Shown piece by piece: positions 29,958-37,547 of a stretch of DNA of 64,000 bases. Source of the stretch: Micromonospora halotolerans (GTDB lineage Bacteria > Actinomycetota > Actinomycetes > Mycobacteriales > Micromonosporaceae); assembly GCF_032108445.1 (NCBI RefSeq), contig NZ_CP134876.1, positions 806,001 through 870,000 of the forward strand. The letters run 5' to 3'. The position numbers were made by a program, and so were the translations under genes. Each line of letters starts with the position of its first letter. Within the stretch, counting starts at the first letter, position 1. The notes under the pieces were generated by a model, which worked only from the letters and a program-made list of their open reading frames with translations, did no database searches and was not told where the DNA came from.

Positions 29958-30872
29958 GTGCCCGAAGGCGACACCGTCTGGAACACCGCCCGCGTCCTCC
30001 AGCGCGCCCTGGCCGGCGCCCGGCTCACCGGCTCGGACTTCCGCGTGCCGCAGCTCGCCGCGACCGACCTGACCGGCTGGACCGTGCGCGAGTCGGCCAG
30101 CCGGGGCAAGCACCTGCTGCTCCGCCTCACCGCGCCGCCCGACGCCGCCGCACGAGCTACCGCCGCGCCGCCCGACGCCGCCGCGCGAGCCACCGCCGCG
30201 CTGCCCGGGGCCGGCACCCCCGCGCCGCCCGACGCCGCCGGCGACGGGGGCGGGGGCGAAGGCGGGCGGGACTGGACCCTGCACTCGCACCTGCGGATGG
30301 ACGGCGCCTGGCGGGCGTACGCGCCGGGCGAGCGGTGGGCGGCCCGGCCGGCGCACCTGATCCGGGTGGTGCTCCGCTCCCCCGGGGCGGTCGCCGTCGG
30401 CTACCACCTGCACGAGCTGGCCCTGATCCCGACCGCCGAGGAGGAGTCGCTGGTCGGCCACCTCGGCCCGGACCTGCTCGGCCCCGACTGGGACCCGGAG
30501 GAGGCGGTGCGTCGGCTGTCCGCCCACCCGGACGAGACGATCGGCGAGGCGCTGCTGGACCAGCGCAACCTGGCCGGGGTGGGCAACCTCTACAAGTGCG
30601 AGGTGCTGTTCCTGCGTGGGGTCAACCCGTGGACTCCGGTCCGCGCGGTGCCCGACCTGCCGGGCACGGTCACGCTCGCGCAGCGGCTGCTCGCCGCCAA
30701 CCGGGGCCGCTGGGCGCAGAGCACCACCGGGTCGCTGCACCGCGGTCAGACCAGCTACGTCTACGGCCGGCGGGCCCAGCCGTGCCGGCGCTGCGGCACC
30801 GCCATCCGTAAGGAGGAGCTGGGCGAGCGGGTCACGTACTGGTGCCCGGCCTGCCAACCGGCCCGCCCCTGA
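29958..30872 (+). CDS. Nei2-type endonuclease VIII DNA glycosylase
   Basis: The 304-residue protein is an Fpg/Nei-family bifunctional glycosylase/AP lyase that removes oxidised bases. The N-terminal catalytic PEGDT (Pro2, Glu3), the H2TH region (LDQRNLAGVGNLYKCEVLFLRGVNP) and the zinc finger CRRCGTAIRKEELGERVTYWCPAC are intact. A low-complexity insertion at about residues 57-97 contains repeats of APPDAAARATA and is unusual. The start is a GTG at 29958 with GGAGG upstream. In actinobacteria Nei2 genes are often next to lhr, as here, though two genes intervene. Confidence 0.9.
   Translation: MPEGDTVWNTARVLQRALAGARLTGSDFRVPQLAATDLTGWTVRESASRGKHLLLRLTAPPDAAARATAAPPDAAARATAALPGAGTPAPPDAAGDGGGGEGGRDWTLHSHLRMDGAWRAYAPGERWAARPAHLIRVVLRSPGAVAVGYHLHELALIPTAEEESLVGHLGPDLLGPDWDPEEAVRRLSAHPDETIGEALLDQRNLAGVGNLYKCEVLFLRGVNPWTPVRAVPDLPGTVTLAQRLLAANRGRWAQSTTGSLHRGQTSYVYGRRAQPCRRCGTAIRKEELGERVTYWCPACQPARP
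30132..30197 (+). repeat. 33-bp tandem duplication inside the nei2-type gene
   Basis: Two 33-bp units (30132-30164 and 30165-30197), each encoding APPDAAARATA, differ at two bases. A diverged partial third unit follows (ALPGAGTPAPPDAAG). The repeat keeps the frame and lies in a surface loop, suggesting recent slippage expansion. Confidence 0.8.
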
Positions 30873-30919
30873 CGCGTCCACTTTGTAGGCTGGTGGCCGT
30901 CGATCATGGGGAGGGTCTC

Positions 30920-31498
30920 GTGCGGACCATCAGGACGAGCCGGTTCGGCGCGGTCGCGCTGGCCACGGCGATGACGGTGACGGGGTGCGGCGTCTTCCGC
31001 GCCTCGGACGCCTCGGACGACGGGAAGGCCACGGCGAGCGCGGGGGTCGCGGACCTCGGCGCGGTCGTCGCCACCCGGGACGTCCAGATCAGCAAGGGCG
31101 GCCTGTTCCCGGTACGGGTCGAGCTGTACCAGCTCCGCCGCCGGGACGGCTTCGTCACGGTCAACGTGAAGCTGACCCGCACCGACGCCGGCGGAACGGA
31201 CAGCTGGCAGGTGGGCGACACCTTCCAGGGCGACACCATCTCGCTCACGTTCGCCGGGGTGACCATGGTGGACCGGAAGAACCGCAAGCGCCACCTGGTC
31301 GCCCGGGTGGATCCGAGCGCCGCACCGGACGGGCGGGACGCCCGGTACCTCGCGTCGTCGGGCCTCTCCTCGGTGTTCGTGAAGCCGGGCCAGTCGATCT
31401 GGCTGTACGCCACCTTCGGCGCTCCGCCGGCCGACGTCAGCGCCGTCGACGTGGTCGTACCCCGGGTGCCGGTGTTCGAGAATGTCCCGCTCGGCTGA
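30920..31498 (+). CDS. Putative lipoprotein, unknown function
   Basis: The 192-residue protein has a lipoprotein signal: a basic start, a hydrophobic stretch (RFGAVALATAMTV) and a lipobox ending in Cys23 (TVTGCG). It is therefore predicted to be anchored on the outer face of the membrane. The mature part begins with a Ser/Asp-rich linker and then a beta-rich domain (QISKGGLFPVRVELYQLRRRDGFVTVNVKLTRTD... VFVKPGQSIWLYATFGAPP) like DUF4352/immunoglobulin-type extracellular modules; I cannot name the family firmly. The start is a GTG at 30920 after GGGGAGGG. It overlaps the OmpA-family gene by 17 bp, so the pair is one operon. Confidence 0.78.
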   Translation: MRTIRTSRFGAVALATAMTVTGCGVFRASDASDDGKATASAGVADLGAVVATRDVQISKGGLFPVRVELYQLRRRDGFVTVNVKLTRTDAGGTDSWQVGDTFQGDTISLTFAGVTMVDRKNRKRHLVARVDPSAAPDGRDARYLASSGLSSVFVKPGQSIWLYATFGAPPADVSAVDVVVPRVPVFENVPLG

Positions 31499-32087
31499 GC
31501 GGGCGGCGGCGCTGGCCGCCGTCGTCGCCCTCGTCGTGCCGGCCGGACCGGCGCTGGCGGCCGCACCGGCGTCGCCGCCGCCGGAGCCGGTCGTGGTGCC
31601 CGGGCCGAGCCTCCCCGCGGGCGCGGTGGTGCGGGCTCCGGTGCTCGACCTCGACGCCCCGGCGCAGGACATCCTCGTCCCGGTCGAGGACCTGACCGAC
31701 GGCAGCATCACGGCCGAGTCCCGTTCCCGGGTGGAGCTGACCCTCGCCGCCGACGTGCTCTTCGCCTTCGGGCGGGCCGAGCTGTCACCGGCCGCGCGCA
31801 CCCGGCTGGCCGGGATCGCGGAGCAGGTGCGCGCCCAGGCCCGGGGCACCGTCCGCATCGACGGGCACACCGACTCGGTCGGCGACGAGCGGAGCAACCT
31901 CACGCTGTCGCGGCGGCGGGCGGAGGCGGTGCGGGCCGAGCTGACGCGGCTGCTCGGGCCGGGGGTCGCCGTCGCGGTCGCGGGTCACGGCGAGGCCCGG
32001 CCGGTGGCGCCCAACCAGGTGGACGGTGCGGACAACCCGGCGGGCCGGGCGCGCAACCGGCGGGTGGAGATCCGCTTCGACCGCTAG
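31482..32087 (+). CDS. OmpA-family protein, secreted
   Basis: The 201-residue protein has a signal peptide (residues 1-27, AAALAAVVALVVPAGPALAA) and a C-terminal OmpA-like domain (about 85-200). The peptidoglycan-binding signature is clear: FAFGRAELSPAARTRLAGIAEQVR, then RIDGHTDSVGDERSNLTLSRRRAEAVRAEL and the closing NRRVEIRFDR. It should attach non-covalently to the cell wall. Its start lies inside the end of the lipoprotein gene, so translation is coupled. In Gram-positive bacteria such proteins are envelope or ESX-like accessory factors; the partner here is the lipoprotein. Confidence 0.87.
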   Translation: MSRSAERAAALAAVVALVVPAGPALAAAPASPPPEPVVVPGPSLPAGAVVRAPVLDLDAPAQDILVPVEDLTDGSITAESRSRVELTLAADVLFAFGRAELSPAARTRLAGIAEQVRAQARGTVRIDGHTDSVGDERSNLTLSRRRAEAVRAELTRLLGPGVAVAVAGHGEARPVAPNQVDGADNPAGRARNRRVEIRFDR

Positions 32088-32103
32088 CCGGGGACCGGCG
32101 CGT

Positions 32104-32158
32104 GGAACTTCCACGAACCATCCAAGATCGCCCGAGATACGGACGATTGGGTAGTTCC
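32104..32158. repeat. Imperfect inverted repeat downstream of the OmpA-family gene
   Basis: GGAACT (32104-32109) and AGTTCC (32153-32158) enclose a degenerate palindromic core containing TCCAAGATCG and CGATTGGG. The CCAAGATC core recalls the arms of the element at 28493-28542. It may be a decayed copy or a terminator for the lipoprotein-OmpA operon. Confidence 0.4.
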
Positions 32159-32270
32159 CTCCCGCACCTTCGGCGTCGCATGCTGCGGTGGAGTGCTCAC
32201 CGATCGTCAGCAGCGCGTACGCCCGCCACGTCGGGGTGACGGCAGGCGCGCCCCGACCCCGGGGAGAGCC

Positions 32271-35200
32271 ATGGTGCTGTTCCGCAGACTCCGGCCGGGA
32301 TGGGCGGACCGCTTCGCCCGGACCGCCGAGGACCACGCGCCGACGGTGCCCGCCGCCCGCGCCACCGACGAGGAAACCGGCCCCACGCCGGCCAGTCTCG
32401 ACCCGGCCGCCGTGCCGCGCCTGTTCGGCCCGGTGCCGAACTTCGCCGCCAGCCCGCTGCCCGTGCTCGACCGGGCCGGCCGGCCGCTGCCCGGCACCGG
32501 CATCCGCAAGTTCGTCGACCCGCTGCCGGTGCCCGGCCCGCTCGCCACCGCCGGCCTCGGCGCCCGCCTGCCCGTCGCGGTCCCCGACACGATCACGTGG
32601 CCGGGCTGCGACTACTACGAGATCGGCCTCCAGGAGTACGCGCAACGCCTGCACCGCGACCTGCCGGCCACCCGGCTGCGCGGCTACCGCCAGCTCAACC
32701 TGGGCACCGACGCGGCCGGCCACAACACGGTGGTCCCGCCCGACCGGCCGTGGCACCTCGGCCCGATGATCGTCGCCCGGCGCGGCCGGCCGGTGCGGAT
32801 CAAGTTCATCAACCAACTGCCCACCGGCCGGGCCGGCGAACTGTTCCTGCCGGTCGACGAGACGGTCGACGGGGCCGGGACCGGGCCGCTGGACGGGCCC
32901 GCGCCGTACCCGCAGAACCGGGCGGTGCCGCACCTGGCCGGAGCGCAGACGGCCTGGATCAGCGCCGGCAACCCGTGGCAGTGGGTCACCCCGGCCGGCG
33001 AGATCACCCCGTACCCGACCGGGGTGGGGGTGACCCCGGTGCCGGACATGCCGCCGCCCGGCGCGGGCGCCACCACGCTCTACTTCCCCAACGAGCAGAG
33101 CGGCCGGCTCATGTGGCTGCACGACAACATCCTCGGCCTGTCCCGGCTCACCGTCTACTCCGGGCAGCTCGCGCTCTACCTGCTGACCGACCCGGCCGAG
33201 GAGCGGCTGGTCGACGACGGGGTGCTTCCCGCCGACCAGCTGCCCCTGGTGATCGAGGACAAGACCTTCGTGCCGGACGACGCCCAGCTCGCCGCCCAGG
33301 ATCCCACCTGGGACCGGGACCGCTGGGGCGCGAAGGGCAGCCTCTGGCACCCGCACGTCTACCAGCCCCGGCAGAATCCGTACCGCAGCAGCGGCGGGAA
33401 CCCGACCGGCCGCTGGGACTACGGCCCGTGGACGCACGACCCGGACGGCGGGGCCAGCCCCTGGGTCGCCCCGGTGCCGAACCCGCACCACGATCCCGTC
33501 GCCGAGCCGGACGAGCCGCCCCTCGCGCCGGGCGTGCCGCACCCGTCGGCGGTGCCCGAGGCGTACGGGGACACCCCGCTGGTCAACGGGGTGGCGTACC
33601 CCTACCTGGAGGTCGCGCCGCGGGCGTACCGGTTCCGGATCCTCAACGCCTGCCCGGACCGCACGCTCAACCTCCAGCTCTACCGGGCCCGCTCCGACCA
33701 GCCGATGTGGACCGGGACCGGCGCGCCGGGCGACCCGCGCGCCGGCGAGGTGCCGATGGTCGACGCGGTCCGGGCGGCCGCGCGGCCGGCGCACTGGCCG
33801 GTCGACGGGCGCGAGGGCGGGGTGCCCGATCCGGCCGCCGCCGGCCCGGAGCTGATCCAGATCGGCAACGAGGGTGGTCTGCTGCCCGCCCCCGTGGTGC
33901 TGGCCCACCGCCCGATCGGCTACCGGTACGACCGCCAGGACCCCACCGCGCTCAACGTGGACGGGCACACCCTGCTGCTCGCCCCCGGCGAGCGGGCCGA
34001 CGTGGTGGTCGACTTCGCGACCGTCCCGCCGGGCAGCACCCTGATCCTCTACAACGACTGCCCGGCGCCGCTGCCCCGGTTCGACCCCCGCTACGACCAC
34101 CACACCGACGCGCCGGACCGCACCGCCACGGGCGGCCTGCCCGCCACCCGCCCCGGCTACGGCCCGAACACCCGGACCCTCCTCCAGATCCGGGTGACCG
34201 GCACCCCGGCCGAGCCGTACGACCGGGACCGGCTCGCCGCCCGGCTTCCCGGCGCGTACGCGGAGAGCCAGCGACCGCCGATCGTGCCGCAGCCGGCCTA
34301 CGACGCGGCCTTCGGCATCCGCACGGCCGGCGCCACGCTGGTGCCGGTGCGTGCCACCTCGGTGACCTTCACCCCGGCCGGCGCGGCCGCCCCGGTCACG
34401 CTGCCGCTGGCCGTGAAGTCGGTCGGGCAGGTCTTCGAGTCCCGGCACGGCCGGGCCGTGGGGCGGCTCGGGGTCGCCCACCCGAACGCCGGGCACCGGA
34501 CCCCGGCCGCCCTGCCGCTCGGCCCGGCCGACCCGGCCACCGAGGTGCTGTACGCGACCGACCCGACCGTGCCGGTGGGCGGCCCGGCCGACGGCACCCA
34601 GCTGTGGCGGATCGTCGGCGACGCACCCCGCACCCACCCGGTGCACGTCGAGGGCTGCGACGTGCAACTGGTCAACCGGGTCGGCTGGGACGGCACGGTC
34701 CGCCCGCCGGACGCCAACGAGCTGGGCTGGAAGGACACCGTCCGGGTCAACCCGCGGGAGGACGTGATCGTGGCCCTGCGCCCGGTCCCGCCCACCCTCC
34801 CCTTCAAGATCGGCGACAGCGTACGGCTGCTCGACCCGACCCGGCCGGCCGGCGCCCGGCTGGACGCCAGCCCGGTCAGCCCGGTCGACGGCCGGCCCGC
34901 CACGGTGGTCAACCAGCTGGTCAACCTCGGGTGGGAGTACCGCTGGCAGACCCGCTCGGCGGGGCTGCGCGACCAGGGCATGAGCCGGCCGCTCGTGCTG
35001 CGGATGGCGCCCAAGGCGCCGACCGGGCTGACCGCCACCCCGGCGCCCGGCTCGGCCACCGCGCTGCCCGCCATCGCGCTGACCTGGACCGGCAACGGCA
35101 GCCGCCCGCCGGCCAGCAGCCACCGGCTGCAACGTGCCACCGACGCGGCCTTCACGGCCGGGCTCACCGAGCTCACCGTGGCCGCCGCGGCCACCCGGTA

Positions 35201-35882
35201 CACCGACGCGACCGTCACCCCCGGGGTCACCTACCACTACCGGATCCGGGCCGAGAACGCGGTGAGCTGCTCGGCCTGGTCGAACAGCATCCCCGCCGCG
35301 GTGCAGCTCACCGCGCCGGCCAGGCTGGCCGCCGTGATCCCGCCGGCCGCGCCGCTGCGGATCGCGCTGCGCTGGGCGAACCGTTCCTTCGCGACCGGCG
35401 TGGACGTGCAGCGGGCCACCAACCCGACGTTCACGAGCGGGCCGGGGACCACGGCCATCGCCGTGGGCGAGGCCCACCTCGACCCGGCGGTCGCCCCGGA
35501 CACCACCTACTACTACCGGGTTCGCACCACCTACCTGGGCGCCGCGTCACCGTGGTCGACGGTGGCCACGGTGACGACGCCACCCCGGCCCGGAGTGCCG
35601 ACCGGGGTGCTTGCCACCGCCACCGCGCCCGCCCCGGACACCGCCACGGTGATCCTCAGCTGGTCGGCCAGCACGCCCACCGGGACGGGCGCGGGGTTCG
35701 TGGTGCAGCGCGCCACCGACGCGGCCTTCACCCACGACCTGGCCACGTTCAGCGTGACCGGCCGCGGCTTCACGAACACCGGCCTGACCCGGGGCGCGAC
35801 GTACCACTACCGCATCCGCTCGGTCAACGTCGTCGGCACCTCGGCCTGGACCGCCCCCACCCGGGTCACCACCCCCGACTGA
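32271..35882 (+). CDS. Multicopper-oxidase-like protein lacking most copper ligands, with three FnIII domains
   Basis: This 1203-residue protein aligns along residues 1-905 with large bacterial multicopper oxidases. It has VPDMPPPGAGATTLYFPNEQSGRLM, IEDKTFVPDDAQLAAQDPTWD and NELGWKDTVRVNPREDVIVALRP. Three fibronectin III domains follow (about 911-1203). The copper sites are degenerate. HLHGG reads HLAGA (His221 kept, Ala223), HQW reads WQW (Trp236), HDH reads HDN (284-286), HPxHxH reads HPVHVE (789-794), and HCHxxxH reads QTRSAGL (893-899). Four of eleven ligands remain, so oxidase activity is unlikely. No signal peptide is visible. The ATG at 32271 follows GGGGAG. A binding or structural role is inferred. 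Confidence 0.88.
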   Translation: MVLFRRLRPGWADRFARTAEDHAPTVPAARATDEETGPTPASLDPAAVPRLFGPVPNFAASPLPVLDRAGRPLPGTGIRKFVDPLPVPGPLATAGLGARLPVAVPDTITWPGCDYYEIGLQEYAQRLHRDLPATRLRGYRQLNLGTDAAGHNTVVPPDRPWHLGPMIVARRGRPVRIKFINQLPTGRAGELFLPVDETVDGAGTGPLDGPAPYPQNRAVPHLAGAQTAWISAGNPWQWVTPAGEITPYPTGVGVTPVPDMPPPGAGATTLYFPNEQSGRLMWLHDNILGLSRLTVYSGQLALYLLTDPAEERLVDDGVLPADQLPLVIEDKTFVPDDAQLAAQDPTWDRDRWGAKGSLWHPHVYQPRQNPYRSSGGNPTGRWDYGPWTHDPDGGASPWVAPVPNPHHDPVAEPDEPPLAPGVPHPSAVPEAYGDTPLVNGVAYPYLEVAPRAYRFRILNACPDRTLNLQLYRARSDQPMWTGTGAPGDPRAGEVPMVDAVRAAARPAHWPVDGREGGVPDPAAAGPELIQIGNEGGLLPAPVVLAHRPIGYRYDRQDPTALNVDGHTLLLAPGERADVVVDFATVPPGSTLILYNDCPAPLPRFDPRYDHHTDAPDRTATGGLPATRPGYGPNTRTLLQIRVTGTPAEPYDRDRLAARLPGAYAESQRPPIVPQPAYDAAFGIRTAGATLVPVRATSVTFTPAGAAAPVTLPLAVKSVGQVFESRHGRAVGRLGVAHPNAGHRTPAALPLGPADPATEVLYATDPTVPVGGPADGTQLWRIVGDAPRTHPVHVEGCDVQLVNRVGWDGTVRPPDANELGWKDTVRVNPREDVIVALRPVPPTLPFKIGDSVRLLDPTRPAGARLDASPVSPVDGRPATVVNQLVNLGWEYRWQTRSAGLRDQGMSRPLVLRMAPKAPTGLTATPAPGSATALPAIALTWTGNGSRPPASSHRLQRATDAAFTAGLTELTVAAAATRYTDATVTPGVTYHYRIRAENAVSCSAWSNSIPAAVQLTAPARLAAVIPPAAPLRIALRWANRSFATGVDVQRATNPTFTSGPGTTAIAVGEAHLDPAVAPDTTYYYRVRTTYLGAASPWSTVATVTTPPRPGVPTGVLATATAPAPDTATVILSWSASTPTGTGAGFVVQRATDAAFTHDLATFSVTGRGFTNTGLTRGATYHYRIRSVNVVGTSAWTAPTRVTTPD

Positions 35883-35899: not shown

Positions 35900-36679
35900 T
35901 CAGGGGGTGCGGAGGGGCGCGTGCGCGGTGCGGAGTTCGGCCAGGGCGGACGCGACGCCGTGCAGCAGGTCGGTGGCCTCGGTGAGGCGGGCCGCCGAAG
36001 GATCGTGGGTGCCGGGGTGGGCGTCCTCGGCCACGTAGCCGGCGGCGGCCACCACCAGCCGCTCGTACGCGGCCACTCCACTCTCCAACTGGTCGACCAG
36101 GGTGGCGTGCGCCTCGGCGAGCGACCCGCGCGCCTCGGCGGGGGCGAGCTTCAGGGCGCGTTCCACGCCGGCCACCCGGTTGGCCAGGTCACGCAGGGAG
36201 CGGTCGGCCTCGGCCGCCTCGCGGACCGCCGGCTCGGCCAGCCCGGTGAGCCGCCCGGCCAGCCCGGCCAGGGTCAGCGCGGCCCGGTCCAGCCGGGCCC
36301 ACGCCTCGGCGGCGGTGGTGCCGCGCAGCGCGAGGCGGGAGCGGACGCGGCGTACCTCGGCGAGGACGCCGGGGCCCACGGGCAGCCGCTCGACGGCGGC
36401 GACCAGCCGGGCGCGGGAGCGGGCGGCGGCCTCGGCCGGGTCGAGGGCCGGCGGGGCCGGCGCGGCGGCGAGGACCCTCAGGTCGGCCCAGCGCCAGACC
36501 GCGACGGCGATGGCGCTGCCGGCGGCTCCGGCCCAGGCCGCGTCGGGCAGGCCCAGCCCGGCGTACGGGGTCAGCACGGCGGCGGCGCCGCCCAGCCCAC
36601 CGGCCAGGACGCTCCAGCGCCGCGCGGACCGGCGCAACCTGCGCAGCCGGCGGAAGTGCCGTGCCCGCTCGTCGACCAT
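35900..36679 (-). CDS. pspM: PspM-like phage-shock membrane protein
   Basis: The 259-residue protein has a basic N-terminus (ARHFRRLRRLRRSARRW), two membrane segments (about 23-45 and 48-65) and a long helical cytosolic part (80-245). It follows pspA by 16 bp. In mycobacteria the order clgR-pspA-pspM (Rv2745c-Rv2744c-Rv2743c) is conserved, and PspM is the membrane partner of PspA. The call rests on this synteny plus the two-helix plus coiled-coil layout. The ATG at 36679 is the natural start. No PspN follows. Confidence 0.8.
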   Translation of the reverse strand: MVDERARHFRRLRRLRRSARRWSVLAGGLGGAAAVLTPYAGLGLPDAAWAGAAGSAIAVAVWRWADLRVLAAAPAPPALDPAEAAARSRARLVAAVERLPVGPGVLAEVRRVRSRLALRGTTAAEAWARLDRAALTLAGLAGRLTGLAEPAVREAAEADRSLRDLANRVAGVERALKLAPAEARGSLAEAHATLVDQLESGVAAYERLVVAAAGYVAEDAHPGTHDPSAARLTEATDLLHGVASALAELRTAHAPLRTP

Positions 36680-36695: not shown

Positions 36696-37547
36696 CTAGC
36701 TCGTGGTGCTCTCCCCGGTGCCGCGCTCCCGGCTCATGTTGGCCCGGATCTCGTCGAGCCGGGCGGCGGCCGCCGGGTCGGCGGGCTGCCCCACCGCGGG
36801 GCGTTCCTGCCGGCTGCCGAGCTGCTCGCCGGCCATGCTCGACCGGATCTGCTCCAGTCTCGCCGACCCGGCCGAGTCGAGGCTCGCCTTCTGGATCTCC
36901 AGCATCCGGCCCTCGACGGAGTTGCCGGCCAGCTCGGCCCGGCCCATCGCGTCGGCGTAGCGGCGCTCGATCCGGTCGCGGACCTCGTTGAGCGACGGGG
37001 TGGTGCCGGGGGCGGTGAGCGCGGACATCGACTCCAGCGAGCGGGCCACGGTCTCCTGCATCTTGGCCTGCTCGAGCTGGCTGAGCAGCTTGCTGCGCTC
37101 GGCCAGCTTCTGCTGGAGGATCATCGAGTTGTTCTCGACCGCCTTGCGGGCCTGCGCGGCCGCGCCGAGCGCCTGGTCGTGCAGGGTCTTGAGGTCCTCC
37201 ATCGCCTGCTCGGCGGAGACCAGCTGGCTGGCGAGCAGCTGCGCGGACTGCTCGTAGCGCCCGGCCTCGGTCTCGTCGCCGCGGCCCCGGGACTGGTCGG
37301 CCAGGACCAGGGCCTGCCGGGCGTTGGCCTGGAGCTGCTCGACCTCGGTCATCTGCCGGGACAGCTTCATCTCCAGCTGGCGCTGGTTGCCGATCACGGC
37401 GGCCGCCTGCTGAACCAGCGCCTGGTGCTGCCGCTGGGCCTCCTCGATGGCCTGCTGGATCTGCACCTTCGGATCGGCGTGCTCGTCGATCTTCGCGCCG
37501 AAGAGCGCCATCAGGTATTTCCAACCCTTGACGAACGGGTTCGCCAT
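36696..37547 (-). CDS. pspA: Phage shock protein A (PspA/IM30 family)
   Basis: The 283-residue protein is a PspA/IM30 homologue, a peripheral membrane coiled-coil protein that protects membrane integrity and proton motive force under envelope stress. Residues 1-220 form the long helices ([45 protein letters not shown]... [47 protein letters not shown]). The C-terminal 60 residues are disordered and acidic. The amphipathic N-terminal helix is intact. clgR lies 166 bp upstream and pspM 16 bp downstream. ClgR probably activates it, as in mycobacteria. Confidence 0.93.

Follow-up and report, generated by a model that had tools for sequence, protein, structure and literature searches.

A multicopper oxidase homologue at the nei–psp locus of Micromonosporaceae with graded loss of copper ligands

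Homologues of multicopper oxidases (MCOs) that lack copper ligands are a known kind of protein, described from bacteria, insects and plants. According to the accessible part of its report (PMC2661564), SufI/FtsP of Escherichia coli has the MCO fold, keeps 2 of 12 copper ligands, held no metal in the crystal, and has been proposed to act as a scaffold. The insect protein MCORP is an MCO homologue in which many copper ligands are missing; it is essential, and no oxidase activity was detected in what the accessible portion of PMC4203857 relates. In plant SKU5, the type 1 and type 3 copper ligands are absent, as stated in an excerpt of PMC10315306. Here, we describe a gene of Micromonospora halotolerans that encodes a large MCO homologue deprived of most of its copper ligands. 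The gene lies in a stretch of 64,000 nucleotides (contig NZ_CP134876.1, positions 806,001 to 870,000), hereafter called the window. Its product has lost copper ligands and is under selection, and the sequences place it in a separate bacterial lineage of copper-less MCO homologues with graded intermediates. A search of the open-licence literature recognized no paper on this protein or its lineage.

The window protein shares with SufI/FtsP its homology to MCOs without the copper ligands. However, SufI/FtsP is a periplasmic protein of 451–478 amino acids exported by the twin-arginine translocation (Tat) route, whereas the window protein has about 1200 amino acids, three fibronectin type III (FnIII) units and no export signal that we could see; its score against the FtsP model NF008135 was 42.5 bits, under a cut-off of 581. 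MCORP belongs to an animal lineage and SKU5/SKS are plant cell-wall proteins, and both are likened to the window protein by description only. The closest solved sequence is CotA, the laccase of the Bacillus spore coat, which was also the top Foldseek match. With 513 amino acids and no FnIII units, CotA is a copper-containing, active laccase, while the window protein is copper-less and has 1203 amino acids. A further likeness is to second MCO copies in four genomes of the same genus (loci L145, L202, L203 and L204; labels with L, G and g denote our loci, genomes and genera). These sister copies are 58–60% identical to the window protein in the MCO body, have a similar length, and show no export signal at the start read as likely. 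They differ in having all ligands, in occupying other chromosomal places, and in lacking the MxxF[RK][RK] start.

An earlier reading of the bare sequence (the original prediction) had claimed an intact frame of 1203 residues with three FnIII domains. Translation of the forward-strand frame (Table 1) indeed gave 1203 amino acids with zero internal stops. The C-terminal 295 residues consist of three FnIII-like units of about 100 amino acids each, mutually 33–41% identical; Pfam fn3 passes for two stretches, and self-similarity recovers all three. Homology to MCOs was evident from Pfam Cu-oxidase_2 at residues 766–838 (25.3 bits, cut-off 20.4) and from the PDB, where CotA was the top match by phmmer (E = 6.4e-35) and again came first when a profile of 51 orthologue rows was used (E = 1.1e-44). 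Scores against NCBIfam models were far under their cut-offs (PhsA, 68.9 vs. 950; CueO, 54.6 vs. 525). Foldseek, run with the first of two AlphaFold2 models only, also placed CotA on top (E = 1e-16), but with TM-scores of just 0.25/0.42, and thus adds little. The host genome is a single contig of 6.96 Mb with one copy of the gene.

Active MCOs are defined by ten His ligands and one Cys; the window protein keeps four of these eleven, and the type 1 (T1) Cys is gone. In two MAFFT alignments, the ligands and the axial Met of the window protein read HAHNHHEQTRLM (H A H N H H E Q T R L M), where 12 copper-complete aligned rows read HHHHHHHHCHHM. CotA site numbers and the labels T1, T2 and T3 (type 1 to type 3) are those that we take to belong to the aligned positions. 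Besides the window protein, the ligand table covered 92 relatives and 5 outgroup rows. Retained are H221, H284, H789 and H792, plus M904, and all seven replacements listed in the original prediction (A223, N286, E794, Q893, T894, R895 and L899) were found in the alignments. Its additional point, a change of the HQW motif to WQW, is real but a weak sign, as this position varies among copper-complete relatives too. By the aligned residues, the protein has lost the T1 site along with most of the trinuclear one, and it is almost certainly not a four-copper oxidase.

The same losses extend across the genus. Of 103 confirmed loci, the best 80 were joined to the window in the orthologue set (81 rows). 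Their record titles name Micromonospora, Salinispora, Verrucosispora and, in one case, a Micromonosporaceae bacterium; L112 and L115 are two pieces from one strain, and the closest named relatives of the window are Micromonospora records. None of the 78 rows readable at the T1 Cys position has Cys; Ser is found in 58, Thr in 18, and Gly and Val in one each. Among 77 complete rows, the number of ligands kept (of 11) was 4 in 40 rows, 3 in 14, 5 in 12, 6 in six, 2 in three, and 1 in two. The 12 ligand sites, counting the axial Met, had a mean entropy of 1.22 bits, compared with 0.64 bits for the whole of residues 61–905 and 0.28 bits for 231 non-ligand sites that are invariant in seven copper-complete relatives. 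No draw of 12 from these 231 sites reached 1.22 bits (0 of 100000 random draws). The residue is held in at least 90% of rows at 178 of the 231 sites, and in <10% of rows at 21. The difference between 1.22 and 0.28 bits argues that constraint was lifted far more on the copper sites than on the fold. In one genome search, every same-genus genome had a match (37/37, own included); the match in G005 is the FnIII end only, at a contig edge, and split or partial copies occur in a few drafts (e.g., G014, G016 and G028).

Next, we compared rates of nonsynonymous and synonymous substitution (dN/dS) by the NG86 method, which disregards codon bias, and whose absolute values are therefore rough. For residues 61–905, dN/dS was 0.088–0.270 in 19 locus pairs; residues 1–60 were much freer (0.28–2.39 in 18 pairs, undefined in one). 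Two copper-complete deep pairs gave 0.054 (dS 1.1, saturated) and 0.217. Values for the whole gene were 0.121–0.274 in 11 pairs. The neighboring genes gave 0.088–0.342 (nei), 0.046–0.295 (pspM), 0.045–0.232 (pspA) and 0.018–0.176 (rimO, 8 pairs). Where one genome has both copies (four genomes), the locus copy had a dN/dS of 0.179–0.443 vs. 0.238–0.323 for the copper-complete copy.

Relatives beyond the genus form a graded series. A match was found in 31 of 150 genomes in the wider family search and in 6 of 80 genomes in the phylum search (own included). The phage collection had no match to the protein; in the plasmid collection, 51 records had MCO matches, all with <60% identity and none spanning 80% of the query, and two of these served as outgroup rows. 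Twelve copies in four other genera sit at the same locus, with pspM beside 12/12 and nei beside 11/12; nei is missing beside L213 only, whose copy lies at a contig end. L213 keeps 10 of the 11 ligands (one T3 His is replaced by Gln), L140 and L208 keep 9, L141, L143, L209, L210, L211 and L212 keep 8, L142 and L214 keep 6, and L144 keeps 2. The T1 Cys is still present in six of the 12. All 13 copies elsewhere in genomes have every ligand, and nei/psp flanks were seen in 0/13 of the fetched stretches. These are the four second copies (held, among the same-genus genomes searched, by G034, G217, G231 and G277), L205–L207, which come from three further genera in the family, and L146–L150 and L152 from other families. 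L151, a more distant relative of 773 amino acids, keeps all ligands too. When partner genes were sought, ten proteins neighboring copper-complete copies at four loci had no common function. The nei–psp place of Micromonosporaceae thus holds a series running from a near-intact four-copper oxidase with one ligand lost to proteins with 1–6 of 11 ligands.

A tree of 45 rows was built with IQ-TREE after removal of the ligand columns; it contained the window, 18 of the 80 loci, the 12 locus copies of other genera and 14 copper-complete proteins. It was the second tree; L115 was omitted from the first and from the motif count below. The 31 locus rows formed one clade (99/98), and its sister was the group of four copper-complete second copies (clade support 100/100). 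Parsimony gives two losses of the T1 Cys, one on the stem leading to 24 rows and the other in L214. In genus g54, H493 is changed in 7/7 copies and the Cys is kept in six, while in genus g32 the Cys and H491 are gone and H493 is retained. Since these two genera lost different ligands, the losses are partly parallel. As far as the sequences tell, the loss of copper proceeded in steps, some of them parallel, and mostly inside the clade bound to this locus. The check proposed with the original prediction, whether copper-less versions form a clade under purifying selection, came out in its favor: the orthologues form a clade, and dN/dS is well below 1. Its description of a maintained pseudoenzyme is well supported by this clade, the low dN/dS, the conserved place and upstream block, and the copper-complete sister group.

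The locus copies also share a distinctive start. In 85 locus rows, Phe4 of the N-terminal motif (Table 1) is found in 84, Arg5 in 81 and Arg14 in 80, and the motif is present in 7/7 further locus copies (L208–L214); it was absent from all four copper-complete sister copies, in which we looked for it. The motif was also considered as an amphipathic helix, and this was rejected, as its hydrophobic moment did not exceed that of shuffled sequences (84 rows, median rank 0.31). In the first 60 residues of the window protein, the 19-residue hydropathy peaked at 0.51 and the scan found no hydrophobic export stretch, so that by hydropathy the Tat signal of SufI/FtsP has no counterpart here. Three other locus copies peaked at 0.49–0.52. 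Six copper-complete deep relatives reach 2.0–2.9 ahead of the MCO body, a strong hydrophobic stretch that we read as a signal peptide. Among the second copies, L145 (0.14) and L202 (0.41) have no hydrophobic stretch, and L203 and L204 reach their scores of 1.6 and 1.0 only ahead of the start read as likely. The original prediction had suggested that the protein may be a scaffold binding carbohydrates or the spore surface. The lack of an export signal by hydropathy makes an ordinary secreted protein of the surface less likely, and the window protein is probably cytosolic, although CotA, a spore coat protein, likewise has no signal peptide. Because the second copies seem to be signal-less with all ligands in place, export would have been lost before copper.

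Our full account of the locus is a graded series with two losses of the T1 Cys, in which an export-less oxidase bearing a docking motif was converted in parallel into a genus-wide cytosolic scaffold. As a whole, this account is tentative, and we give it somewhat less than an even chance. Several observations weigh against it. For H493, two losses and an ancestral loss at the locus with regain in one genus are equally short. The shortest history of H155 is a loss in the locus ancestor with later regains (4 changes vs. 10 irreversible losses), although its replacement by differing residues (Gln, Asn, Ala) is read as separate losses. H491 alternates between His and other residues, so part of the ligands may have been lost before the locus clade diverged. 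Support for the branch that unites g32 with the Micromonospora side is only 91/86, 13 tree rows have an atypical letter composition, and L151, the root used in parsimony, is a long branch. Few other-genus copies were sampled, and a locus copy was defined by the flanks themselves. The failure of the amphipathic helix leaves the role of the motif without that support, and export signals were shown for six deep relatives only, with L206 at just 0.81 and L205 and L207 unscored. Other points bear on the non-catalytic scaffold itself. In same-genome comparisons, the locus copy had the higher dN/dS in 4/6 (0.40–0.44 vs. 0.24–0.32), about the same in 1/6 and the lower in 1/6; constraint on the gene is somewhat relaxed. 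Purifying selection is no proof of a scaffold, as a catalytic site could be repurposed. H221 (77/80 rows), H284 (75/80) and the new N286 (79/80) are almost fixed, and a residual site may exist. The AlphaFold2 models are too poor for the copper pocket to be examined: their mean predicted local distance difference test (pLDDT) scores are 50.2 and 42.7, with domain 1 mostly <50 in the first.

The part of this account that concerns function, a non-catalytic scaffold, is rather probable in our view, and it would parallel the role proposed for SufI/FtsP in the accessible part of PMC2661564. The MCO body and the three FnIII units would be kept under selection as a binding scaffold holding a protein or polymer partner. 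The protein would stay in the cell, or be packaged into the spore like CotA; the N-terminal motif may dock or sort it, and the variable linker may tether it. After its export to a copper-containing compartment had ceased, the protein may have been able to do without copper.

A structural protein of the spore coat or cell surface, placed like CotA through non-classical export or mother-cell packaging, is an unlikely reading. In its favor, CotA is the closest solved relative and shares the absence of a signal peptide, and many secreted proteins carry FnIII units. However, no sigma-70-type promoter, the sole type scanned, was matched upstream, the exact upstream core occurs nowhere else in the genome, and no spore-specific link was found. 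We consider it quite improbable that the protein is still an enzyme of changed chemistry, with a metal or cofactor held in a leftover His/Asn pocket (H221, H284, N286, sometimes H792 and D/E794). The near-fixation of the first three residues speaks for such a pocket, and so does the plant MCO LPR1, reported in the excerpt of PMC10315306 to keep ferroxidase activity without a T1 center. No metal set is common to all rows, however: position 792 is His in just 42/79 rows, position 794 is D/E in 49/79 and Gly in 20, Gln stands at both 221 and 284 in two rows, and the former ligand sites are mostly among the more variable positions. The progressive loss of functional residues, the somewhat raised dN/dS in some comparisons and the split or partial copies in some drafts could also suggest a functionless gene decaying toward loss. 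This is very improbable given the long intact frame, a dN/dS of about 0.2, the match in every same-genus genome of the search, and the conservation of both upstream block and N-terminal motif. As for misalignment, which the original prediction had dismissed, or sequencing error, practically no room is left for either: the flanking motifs align, and orthologues across the 80 loci have the same or further replacements, which refutes this explanation.

On the preferred reading of a maintained, copper-less protein, the series at the locus offers natural stages by which an enzyme turned into a non-enzyme, and copper-complete sisters are still extant. Which step came first, the end of export, the gain of the docking motif or the disappearance of copper, becomes testable. 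Annotations as "multicopper oxidase" at this Micromonospora/Salinispora locus should not be taken to mean laccases.

The features of the locus are given in Table 1. Downstream, the order is the convergent Rv2743c-like gene, pspA, and then genes labelled here clgR, cinA, pgsA and rimO; Pfam supports nei, Rv2743c, PspA and one helix-turn-helix gene among the neighbors. In 80 fetched loci, nei was found in 78, pspM in 70, both in 68, and at least one in 80; flank orientation is identical in all 80, and short contigs explain at least some of the gaps. In several family genomes without the MCO gene, nei and pspA are also near each other, and tblastn (E 1e-3) found no relic in the nei–psp gap of 8 chosen genomes of this kind.

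Table 1. Features of the MCO-homologue locus, in window positions
Feature	Positions	Strand	Evidence or remark
nei-type DNA glycosylase gene	29958..30872	+	conserved upstream neighbor
Inverted repeat CGTGGAA-C-TTCCACG	32101..32115	+	7-bp arms; present in part of relatives
Conserved upstream block	32135..32220	+	alignment of orthologues; ~85 bp, limits approximate
Block core GGACGATTGGGTAGTTCC	32141..32158	+	alignment of orthologues
Ribosome-binding-site-like GGGGAGAG	32261..32268	+	2 nt ahead of ATG
Copper-less MCO-fold protein	32271..35882	+	intact frame, 1203 aa
N-terminal motif M-x-[LMVI]-F-[RK]-[RK]-[LF]-R...R, residues 1-14	32271..32312	+
Linker, residues 15-47	32313..32411	+	poor conservation; high per-site entropy
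MCO (cupredoxin-type) body, residues 48-905	32412..34985	+	homology, alignment, dN/dS
Ala223 replacing T3 His	32937..32939	+	two MAFFT alignments
Asn286 replacing T3 His	33126..33128	+	alignment and row counts; Asn in 79/80 rows
Glu794 replacing T3 His	34650..34652	+	two MAFFT alignments
Gln893-Thr894-Arg895 replacing His-Cys-His (T1 Cys, two T3 His)	34947..34955	+	alignments
Leu899 replacing T1 His	34965..34967	+	two MAFFT alignments
Three FnIII repeats (residues 909-1009, 1010-1103, 1104-1203)	34995..35879	+	Pfam fn3 and self-similarity
Rv2743c-family (PspM-like) gene	35900..36679	-	conserved convergent neighbor
pspA	36696..37547	-	conserved neighbor

For the upstream alignment, 84 regions were taken, 51 remained after thinning (five from other genera) and 26 rows were printed; a consensus letter is one common to at least 70% of the 51 regions. 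The exact core has one site in its own genome, and the next best has 2 mismatches. The core was tried as a regulon signal and dropped: ten other sites were found at 2–3 mismatches, vs. 5 for the reversed-pattern control. The inverted repeat upstream of the block is possibly an operator. No inverted repeat was found at the 3' end of the gene in the window, where one was looked for, and the Rfam scan gave no RNA. Contigs end inside the gene or at most about 130 bases from its 3' end in L037, L048, L063, L065, L088, L091, L111 and L112.

Between nei and the MCO gene, the window has a lipoprotein-like gene without a Pfam match (30842–31498) and an OmpA-family gene (31482–32087); a search of the fetched loci gave no convincing match to either (best E = 1.5e-4). 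About 185 bp separate nei from the MCO gene in the close relatives L037, L038, L039 and L088, and in L045 and L051 the upstream alignment suggests a short remnant of the end of the OmpA gene. The gap is 1.6–1.9 kb in L089, L093 and L105 (Salinispora) and in L142 and L144, vs. mostly about 0.2–0.3 kb; with such other insertions, the spot is possibly a small hot spot. In L169 (1996–7947), from a genome of the family that lacks the MCO gene, a frame of 1984 amino acids adjoins pspM at the same place and is overlapped by a longer antisense frame.

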